A stretch of 64,000 nt of DNA from Gallionella sp. (GTDB lineage: Bacteria > Pseudomonadota > Gammaproteobacteria > Burkholderiales > Gallionellaceae): assembly GCA_030700315.1 (NCBI GenBank), contig JAUYJO010000096.1, forward strand, positions 51,201-115,200. The letters are read 5' to 3'. The translations under genes were made by a program, and so were the position numbers. Each line of letters opens with the position of its first letter. Position 1 is the first letter of the stretch. The notes under the pieces were generated by a model, which searched no databases, was not told the DNA's origin, and saw only the letters and a program-made list of their open reading frames with translations. Of the stretch, positions 571 to 51,963 are shown in pieces.

Positions 571-1226
571 GCATGGGAGCCGCACGTCAAAATGGCTTCA
601 CCCTGCTGGAGTTGCTGATCGGCATGGTGTTGCTTGGCATGATGCTCACGCTGCTGTTTGGCGGTTTGCGCCTCGGGTCGAGAAGCTGGGACAGCGGCGA
701 GCAGCGTGCCGATGAGACAGCCCAGTTGCGCGCCATTCAGGGTTTTATACGGCGCGAACTCGGCCAGGCACTACCCCTGCGCTGGAAGAAAGAGGTCGAT
801 ACCCGGCTGGCCTTTGAAGGGACATCTGACACCCTGAAATTTGTGGCACCCCTGCCGGCACAGGTCAGCGTGGGCGGGCTTTATTTGCTCGGGCTGGAAC
901 TGGAAAATGCTGATGAGGGACAACGCCTGATCATGAAGCGCGCGCTGACCGAGGCTGCGACCCAGGATTTTTCCGGCCTTGAGCAGGGTGAGAAATCGGT
1001 GCTGGTCGACCATGTCGAAAATATGACTATTTCCTACTTTGGTTCGGCAACGGCGCAAGGCGCACCGGATTGGCAGGACAAATGGGATGACCCGCAACGC
1101 CTGCCCTTGCTGGTGCGCATTCAGGTAGAATCAAGCGTTGGGCGCGGCTGGCCCGATCTGGTGATACCCGTGATAATGGAAAAAGGGTGTACTTGGGATT
1201 CCTTTCACAAGCGCTGCGTGAACTGA
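567..1226 (+). CDS. gspJ: Type II secretion minor pseudopilin GspJ
   Basis: Prepilin motif QNGFTLLELLIGMVLLGMMLT; start trimmed to the ATGA overlap with gspI. Confidence 0.85.
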   Translation: MSMGAARQNGFTLLELLIGMVLLGMMLTLLFGGLRLGSRSWDSGEQRADETAQLRAIQGFIRRELGQALPLRWKKEVDTRLAFEGTSDTLKFVAPLPAQVSVGGLYLLGLELENADEGQRLIMKRALTEAATQDFSGLEQGEKSVLVDHVENMTISYFGSATAQGAPDWQDKWDDPQRLPLLVRIQVESSVGRGWPDLVIPVIMEKGCTWDSFHKRCVN

Positions 1227-1231
1227 CGGAC

Positions 1232-1341
1232 ATGGCAAATGCCGCACTTGATGATGAAATCCACTATGCCCGTTTCCCCCATCCCAACCTTCCCCCGCCA
1301 GCGAGGGAAGGGGCAAACGAATCGCTGCGCGAGTTTCGCGG
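1232..1341 (-). repeat. Family A structured repeat, copy 1 (gspJ-gspK gap)
   Basis: Reverse of GTGAAACTCGCGCAGCGATTCGTT...GGGAAACGGGCAT..; contains GAAGGGGCAAACGAATCGCTGCGCGAGTTTCGCGG. Confidence 0.7.
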
Positions 1342-1346
1342 TAAAG

Positions 1347-4892: not shown

Positions 4893-4980
4893 ACATGACG
4901 CAAAACCTGAACATATCAACATGCTCGGAACGGACATTTGTTTATGCGGCAACTTTACGCCGCTATGCCAACCACTTGCG

Positions 4981-5102
4981 TAACGTGAAACTCGCGCAGC
5001 GATTCGTTCGCCTCCTCGCCCGCTTGCGGGAGAGGATTGAGGTGAGGGAAACGGGCATGGCGAGTTTCATTATCAGGGGTGGCCGCTGCCATGCCCGTTA
5101 AC
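4981..5102 (+). repeat. Family A structured repeat, copy 2
   Basis: AACGTGAAACTCGCGCAGCGATTCGTT...ACGGGCATGGCGAGTTTCATTATCAGGGGTGGCCGCTGCCATGCCCGTTA. Confidence 0.85.
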
Positions 5103-5280
5103 GTGAAACTCGCGCAGCGATTCGTTTGCTCCTTCCCTCGCTTGCGGGGTAACCAGCGACTTGGCTGCGGCCTTTGGCAGCTTAGTCGAATGGCTAGTTG
5201 TTTCATCCAGAAGGTTGGGAAGGGGGAAACGGGCATGGCGAGTTTCATTATCGGGTGTGGCTACTCGCCATGCCCGTTAG
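5103..5280 (+). repeat. Family A structured repeat, copy 3 (tandem with copy 2)
   Basis: GTGAAACTCGCGCAGCGATTCGTTTG...GGGCATGGCGAGTTTCATTATCGGGTGTGGCTACTCGCCATGCCCGTTAG. Confidence 0.85.
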
Positions 5281-18601: not shown

Positions 18602-19419
18602 CGATACAAGGAAATTCCGTATATCTTTCGCAATTGAAATTATCCGCCCATGCCGCCGTGATCGACTACGAGTTTCCTATTAACGAAAAAGTGCGCACTT
18701 TGTTGCGCCTGGAAGACTTGTTCGCGCGCACGCAGCACTTTATCGGATACACGCACGGCTTGGATCACCATGCCGCGCTGCTTACCCTGTTTGAAATTCT
18801 TGAAGTAGCCAGCCGCGCCGATCTGAAATCCGAATTGTTGCAAGAACTGGAACGCCAGAAACGCGCCCTTTCTCAGTTGCATAACAATCCGGCAATTTCC
18901 CAGGATGCACTGGACGTCATACTCGCCGAGATTGACGTGGTGTCTGAAAATATTCTTGCCATGGCCGGCAAAACCGGGCAGCACTTGCGTGAAAACGAAT
19001 GGCTGATGGGCATCAAGCAGCGTGCCGTCATGCCCGGCGGCACCTGCGAATTCGACCTGCCTTCCTATCACTACTGGCAGGAGCAGGATGCCGGCGCGCG
19101 GCGCGAACACCTGCAAACCTGGCTGGAGCCCTTTATGCCGCTGCGCGCTGGCCTGGAAATCGTCCTGCGCCTGTTGCGCGAAAGCGGCAAGGAGTATCAC
19201 TTCATCGCGCATCATGGCACTTTTCAGCAAATGCAGGGCGGGCGCACCGCGCAGTTGCTGCGTGTCAGCATGAGCAGTGAACTGGCGTGCATACCCGAGG
19301 TGGGCGCCAATAAATATGCCATCAACATCCGTTTTATTATCGCCGACTATGCGCCAAAAACCACCCTGTTTGATCAGGATGTGCCGTTTGATCTGACCTT
19401 CTGCAGCCTGCCTTCATAA
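18598..19419 (+). CDS. zapD: Cell division protein ZapD
   Basis: YEFPINEKVRTLLRLEDLF, LPGGTCEFDLPSYHYWQ-type motifs; coaE-zapD-yacG order. Confidence 0.87.
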   Translation: MTIQGNSVYLSQLKLSAHAAVIDYEFPINEKVRTLLRLEDLFARTQHFIGYTHGLDHHAALLTLFEILEVASRADLKSELLQELERQKRALSQLHNNPAISQDALDVILAEIDVVSENILAMAGKTGQHLRENEWLMGIKQRAVMPGGTCEFDLPSYHYWQEQDAGARREHLQTWLEPFMPLRAGLEIVLRLLRESGKEYHFIAHHGTFQQMQGGRTAQLLRVSMSSELACIPEVGANKYAINIRFIIADYAPKTTLFDQDVPFDLTFCSLPS

Positions 19420-19575
19420 CGGGCATGACAGTAGCCACACCTGATAATGAAACTGTCATGCCCTGAACCCTCGCTACGCTCTCCCTCTCCTCAATCCTCT
19501 CCCGCAAGCGGGGAGAGCGAAGCGAGGGGGGCGGAGCCAGGCGAACGAATCGCTACGCGAGTTTCACGTTAATCA
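19418..19575 (-). repeat. Family A structured repeat, copy 4
   Basis: GGGCATGACAGTAGCCACACCTGATAATGAAACTGTCATGCCC hairpin ... AACGAATCGCTACGCGAGTTTCACGTTAA. Confidence 0.85.
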
Positions 19576-20765: not shown

Positions 20766-20890
20766 GCGTTAACATGAAGCTCGCGCAGCGATTCGTTTGC
20801 CCCTTCCCTCGCTTGCGGGGGAAGGTTAGGATGGGGGAAACGGGCATGGCGAGTTTCATGATCAGGGGTGGCTGCTCGCCATGCGCGTTA
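20766..20890 (+). repeat. Family A structured repeat, copy 5
   Basis: GTTAACATGAAGCTCGCGCAGCGATTCGTTTG...GGCATGGCGAGTTTCATGATCAGGGGTGGCTGCTCGCCATGCGCGTTA. Confidence 0.85.
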
Positions 20891-21057
20891 GGGATGCAGA
20901 AATTGTAAAAGTACCTTTTATGAACCGGGGGTGGTTTTCGTAGGTCGGGATTCATCCCGACAGAGCGCCGCATAACCCAACCCCGTCGGGATGAATCCCG
21001 ACCTACCTCATCGTGAGGTTCATGACTAAACGGCACGTTTGTGATTTCTGCCTCCCT
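20890..21057 (+). repeat. Family B 168-bp TIR element, copy 1
   Basis: AGGGATGCAGAAATTGTAAAAGTACCTTTTATGA...TCATGACTAAACGGCACGTTTGTGATTTCTGCCTCCCT with GTAGGTCGGGATTCATCCCGAC core. Confidence 0.92.
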
Positions 21058-45068: not shown

Positions 45069-45265
45069 GTAACTACTCAGGTGCTGCCGCTTTTCTCCTT
45101 CCCCCTTGCCGGGGTAAGGCTGGGAGGGGGGTAGAAAGGTGGGGTATTAAAGACACTTTGCGATGACTCCACCCTCCCACCCCCATCCTAACCTTCCCCC
45201 TCACAGGGGGAAGGGACTGGCGTTGTGGCTATTTTCGAGCATACTACTTTGACCTGAGCAGTTAC
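45069..45265. repeat. Family D TIR element, copy 2
   Basis: GTAACTACTCAGGTGCTGCCGCTTTTCTCCTTCCCCC ... GACCTGAGCAGTTAC. Confidence 0.8.
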
Positions 45266-51827: not shown

Positions 51828-51852
51828 TCAAACCTCCGGTATATATCTAAAT

Positions 51853-51963
51853 ACTCGCGCAGCGAGCCGTTCGCCCCCCTCCCCCGCTTGCGGGGGAGGG
51901 TTGGGGAGAGGGAAACAGGCATGACAGTTTCATTATCATGGGTGGCTACTGTCATGCCCGTTA
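51853..51963 (+). repeat. Family A structured repeat, copy 6 (upstream of qmoA)
   Basis: CTCGCGCAGCGAGCCGTTCGCC...GGCATGACAGTTTCATTATCATGGGTGGCTACTGTCATGCCCGTTAA. Confidence 0.85.

Follow-up and report, generated by a model that had tools for sequence, protein, structure and literature searches.

A stretch of 64,000 nucleotides from a Gallionella sp. genome (the window) carries several copies of a hairpin-bearing repeat, here called family A, two of which stand side by side, and the locus raises the question of what kind of element this repeat is. A preliminary description had reported six copies with a shared 5′ box and paired changes in the upper stem, and had considered a protein-recognised single-stranded DNA hairpin, an RNA motif or a mobilised element. 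All six copies were recovered, five by covariance model match to the window and the sixth by a model match to the genome (Table 1), and their layout needed correction: those at 1224 and 19417 are minus-strand copies. The shared 5′ box was found five times at two mismatches or fewer, compared with no occurrence in shuffled sequences, and the paired upper-stem substitutions (GGCATGGCGAG/CTCGCCATGCC versus GGCATGACAGT/ACTGTCATGCC) are present as described. The two neighbouring copies form an exact, abutting tandem with one common CGTT/AACG junction, and the second is longer because a repeat of another type, family B, sits inside its central hairpin. The copy at 1224 runs into the stop codon of a gene (495-1226) that is pseudopilin-like and has an N-methylation motif, beside the gene for T2SS protein K (1239-2252). 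Reading outward, (T)AAC is found at each end of family A (window 1224-1226 and 19417-19419), so insertion tends to give a TAA stop to the interrupted or adjacent gene, as in zapD, whose stop codon TAA is formed by the end of the copy that follows it. One further weak model match on the minus strand (45132-45243, E 4e-4) was rejected as a family A copy, being a different G/C-rich hairpin repeat (CTTCCCCCTGTGAGGGGGAAGG...GGTGGGAGGGTGG).

Table 1. Family A copies in the window and their parts.
Feature	Position	Model match	Strand	Score	Remarks
Family A copy	1224..1342	1224-1344	-		between T2SS genes
Family A copy, short form (AACGTG...CCCGTT)	4982..5099	4980-5100	+	150 bits	T ends the 5′ flank; next copy begins directly at the 3′ side
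3′ hairpin with conserved loop TTTCATTATCAGGGGTGGC	5051..5099		+		part of copy 4982-5099
Family A copy, long form	5100..5278	5098-5279 (G000:C222:56298-56479)	+	111 bits	3′ flank AGG; tandem with 4982..5099
Nested family B element (TAACCAGCGACTTGGCTGC...GCAGCTTAGTCGAATGGCTAGTTGTTTCATC)	about 5149..5208		+		in central hairpin of copy 5100..5278
Family A copy with GGCATGACAG/CTGTCATGCC stem	19418..19570	19417-19572	-		directly after zapD
Family A copy	20771..20889	20769-20890	+		flanks GCGTT / AGGG
Family A copy, GACAG/CTGTC stem	51848..51962	51843-51963	+		5′ end decayed

Family A is non-coding and measures about 118 bp, reaching about 200 bp with nested inserts. In its short form, the conserved 5′ end AACGTGAAACTCGCGYAGCGATTCG is followed by a central palindrome (e.g. 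CCTCTCCCGCTTGCGGGAGAGG) and then by a stably folding 3′ hairpin, AACGGGCATGGCRAG-TTTCATTATCAGGGGTGGC-NN-CTYGCCATGCCCGTT. The two ends differ in their hairpins, which comprise a strong one of 15 bp at one end and only 4 bp (TCGC/GCGA, within TCGC-GYA-GCGA) in AACGTGAAACTCGCGYAGCGATTCG at the other. These ends persist, and the central part varies, being swapped among lineages and made longer by nested repeats. The element is a mosaic, since plasmids of other genera (Pantoea, Cupriavidus and Mitsuaria) carry a related central palindrome by itself, the only part matched there.

The preliminary description had proposed to test covariation with a covariance model and genome-wide copies, and the signal proved to be strong. 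The model was built from 28 sequences, and in an alignment of 91 distinct copies fitted to it, 20 of 21 pairs showed two-sided changes, compared with a shuffled mean of 6.6 (0/500 shuffles), with 94.6% of cells paired. Both stems covaried, the central hairpin included, and the signal was lost when the partner was slid. A loop-anchored check on 214 hairpins gave a mean of 13.8 paired positions out of 16, compared with at most 13.2 when the arms were re-dealt among copies, indicating that arms fit better within than between copies. Compensatory change had been taken as a sign of selection on structure; the covariation itself stands, but repeats can keep covariation in other ways. Palindrome correction by template switching could contribute to it and, because it can give the same pattern, the covariation supports structural selection rather than proving it.

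Within the source genome (3.5 Mb, 243 contigs), the model gave 132 matches at E≤1. Among the 61 genomes searched, source included, matches were present in 33 out of 37 Gallionella genomes versus 1 out of 24 genomes belonging to the order's other families. Matches per genome of the genus ranged from 0 to at least 58, and copy number between sister species from 0 to more than 100. The single genome from another family (G050) carried 44 weaker matches (best E 3e-12), which suggests a sister family or transfer. When the exact loop pattern was searched in 84,980 species genomes, matches came almost only from Gallionella, Gallionellaceae and Nitrosomonadales MAGs, and from the names of these genomes we infer that the genus concerned is Gallionella in the broad sense. 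No full copy was found in the plasmid and phage collections searched, and one viral contig carries an exact loop match.

In order to find unoccupied sites, the joined flanks of 181 copies were searched against the collected loci, several of the resulting alignments being too diverged for use. The clearest case was the L098 copy, which lies inside an unrelated third repeat: the site reads TCGCTT^AGTATTTTG when empty (L026 and L260) and TCGCTT[AATG..CCGTT]AGGATTTTG when filled. The L059/L257 and L076/L088 comparisons agreed with it in showing exact junctions, and no target-site duplication was seen at the informative empty sites. TT preceded 155 of the 181 copies and RG followed 138 (AG in 116), whereas the background rate of RG after TT is 7%. 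The target is TT^RG, mostly TT^AG (CT^AA on the other strand), and on the opposite strand the element stands directly after CT or CC (CY^AACGGGC). The 37 youngest copies, defined by a sister at least 98% identical, showed TT and then A at the 5′ side, and T-AG (23 copies) or T-GG (8 copies) at the 3′ side. The empty sites and the target specificity show that the option of a mobilised element is the right one of the three, and that family A is mobile can be regarded as very probable. Family A is best described as a genus-restricted, non-autonomous mobile DNA element.

What moves it is a less certain matter. The best explanation overall, for which we see about an even chance, is that family A is moved in trans by an HUH single-tyrosine enzyme at TT^RG; the assignment of the mobiliser to the Y1/HUH class is itself tentative, if plausible. 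A transposase supplied in trans would act on single-stranded DNA, where it would recognise the 3′ hairpin together with the conserved loop and cut next to CY on that strand. The enzyme would be an HUH single-tyrosine transposase of the RAYT/IS200-like kind, comparable to TnpA_REP at C|T. For TnpA_REP, cleavage occurs at C|T and a GTAG motif contributes to site choice (PMC8266576); this makes Y1 the likeliest class of enzyme. Also in favour of this class are the lack of target-site duplication, a one-sided target with strand polarity, and a hairpin end that combines a constant loop with a covarying stem. Genes for Y1 tyrosine transposases are common across the genus, and family A copy number correlated with the number of Y1_Tnp genes (rho 0.55, p 5e-4, with kinship ignored and copy counts above 58 being lower bounds); the number of IS91-type Y2 transposase genes showed no association with copy number. 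All nine genomes lacking a RAYT-like gene had nine copies or fewer, and 23 of the 28 genomes with one had at least 12, a cut-off picked after the data were seen, again with kinship ignored and counts above 58 as lower bounds. This association may mirror shared ancestry or general repeat load.

Other observations fit the Y1 reading less well. The associated transposase that the preliminary description proposed to look for did not appear: no copy examined encloses a transposase, and neither an autonomous copy nor a partner gene was found. Family A was not enriched near Y1 genes, lying within about 1.5 kb at 2 of 50 Y1 loci (strong scores), and most of the 25 HUH-motif ORFs examined were flanked by different, mostly GTAG repeats. 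At the conserved end, no room is left for an IS200-style guide between cut and stem, as the hairpin directly adjoins the junction. Replication-strand bias is known for IS608 and ISDra2, but family A showed none (40/81 copies, judged from GC skew in stretches of 20 kb). The option of a protein-recognised single-stranded DNA hairpin is plausible in view of the missing duplication, the strand-specific target and a copy number that tracks tyrosine-transposase genes, but is weakened by the absence of strand bias and of a partner.

The strongest competitor is another class of recombinase that leaves no duplication, such as a serine IS607-like enzyme with a TT core, an IS110-like enzyme or an undescribed one, which we consider possible but less likely. 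The near-invariant TT at both junctions could serve as a crossover core, and no Y1 partner is linked to family A; however, L076 and L088 carry GT and CT, not TT, at the 5′ junction and the empty site. To our knowledge, a covarying hairpin end is not a requirement of the serine IS607-like or IS110-like classes, which also counts against this alternative.

A classical MITE with short terminal inverted repeats (TAACG...CGTTA), mobilised with TA duplication by a DDE transposase of the IS630/Tc1-like type, is very improbable. Many copies do read TA-ACG...CGT-TA at their ends, and the family resembles a MITE in size and copy number as well as in its intergenic position, but the alternation of T-AG and T-GG at the 3′ side of the youngest copies excludes a TA duplication. 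Moreover, TG stands at the empty site in L088, the inverted repeat amounts to just 5 bp, and the strong preference for RG after the site would be left unexplained.

An equally small chance is given to a structured RNA (riboswitch-like element, attenuator or sRNA) selected for its fold, for which the strong covariation, the constant loop and the stable fold would speak. With a crude gene caller, 92 copies were placed in intergenic regions, 31 overlapping the end of an ORF and 11 inside ORFs. Orientation relative to co-directional neighbour genes was random (36 same, 49 opposite), and sites were rarer between divergent than between convergent genes, the latter being nonetheless occupied. Intergenic location and random orientation fit a passenger element better than they fit a regulatory RNA. 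The copies in the window share no neighbour genes, and empty sites and patchy copy number also argue against this alternative. Searches of Rfam at the gathering score returned only a tRNA in the whole window, and matches at a relaxed threshold were at chance level, so that the RNA motif envisaged in the preliminary description found no backing in either Rfam or gene orientation.

Integron attC sites or cassette remnants at GTTRRRY sites are hardly credible. In their favour, GTT-RG at the 3′ junction is similar to the R′ box GTTRRRY, the sequence at the 5′ end is TTAAC, and 21 of 41 genomes of the genus, the source genome among them, have an integron integrase. Against them, only 9 of the 37 young copies carry the G that is expected before the 5′ TT, integrase presence and copy number were unrelated (p 0.60), the integrase loci matched nothing beyond the shared central palindrome, and attC anatomy has no 15-bp perfect hairpin beside R′. 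The integrase gene of the source genome lies at G000:C87:67101-68039, and the gene is also present in 20 other genomes of the genus.

The claim that the repeat is not a named family held across Rfam and the literature searched, in which no description of family A was found. In behaviour it is a passenger element of the REP/PATE type, but it lacks defining features of REPs (the tag and linkage to RAYT genes), of TA-type MITEs (the duplication) and of attC sites (the 5′ G). PATEs, miniatures derived from IS200/IS605, make no target-site duplication, use a short, fixed, one-sided target, carry end hairpins and are non-autonomous. Family A shares the missing duplication, the kind of target and the non-autonomous nature, and it has a strong hairpin at one end with only a 4-bp one at the other. 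It differs from them in that its end hairpins are unlike each other, with one abutting the junction, and in that neither a parental IS around the copies examined nor replication-strand bias was found. Bacterial MITEs (Correia/NEMIS, ERIC-like) are similar to it in size, copy number, intergenic spread and imperfect inverted termini; unlike classical MITEs, family A has no TA duplication, targets TT^RG and has nearly no terminal inverted repeat. Its likeness to REP/REPIN sequences with their RAYT (TnpA_REP) enzymes lies in the palindromic, high-copy, mostly extragenic nature, the species-specific abundance, the hairpin, a CT that adjoins it on one strand and the presence of RAYT genes in the genus. 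However, it has no GTAG/GTGG tag (no conserved GTAG was present beside the stem in the aligned copies), it spans 118-200 bp compared with 20-40 bp for a REP unit, its loop is long and constant, and the Gallionella RAYT genes carry other (GTAG) repeats. The CGTC-tagged REPs, a palindromic family without a dedicated transposase (PMC3733652), resemble family A in both respects, although family A has no CGTC tag, is larger and has distinct ends.

Family B is a hairpin element of about 60 bp (AT-AACCAGCGACTTG-variable stem-TAGTCGAATGGCTAGTTGTTTCAYC) with conserved flanks, found nested in long family A copies and also free-standing, with 110 sites in the source genome (e.g. L278, L311-L317). Its insertions at ^AG leave no duplication and frequently lie within palindromes, for instance CCCGCTTGCGGG^AGAGG. 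Its stem is hypervariable and covarying, with 18 different left arms among 58 copies, 45 of which were fully paired compared with a shuffled maximum of 27, and its lower stem shows a G-C to C-G swap. The third repeat (GCGCCTTGTCTCGCTTAGTATTTTGAATTTATAGAGGC...), present in L098, L278, L026, L254 and L260, received a family A copy (L098) and a family B copy (L278) at the same TT^AG dinucleotide, in different repeat copies. Families A and B, which are unrelated and insert at the same dinucleotide, may share a mobiliser. A broader proposal, possible but doubtful at present, is that RAYT-type or other HUH transposases of Gallionella mobilise both large, GTAG-less mosaic families in trans via single-stranded DNA, recognising the loop and the CT^ target. 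If so, single-strand mobilisation would reach well beyond short REPs.

Bacterial palindromic repeats are a poorly understood class whose mobilisers are mostly unknown, and family A joins it as a mobile hairpin family that is well defined, numbers hundreds of copies across the genus and has known empty sites and a precise target. The wide range in copy number between sister species provides a natural experiment for identifying the transposase that moves elements of this kind, and the family may help to bin or type MAGs of Gallionella. GTAG-type REPs of several families (GTAGGTCGGGATTCATCCCGAC, GTAGGGCGGG.., GTAGCCCGGATG..) were also observed, each flanking different RAYT genes (flanks in L284-L303), with sites at 20940-21000 of the window and elsewhere.
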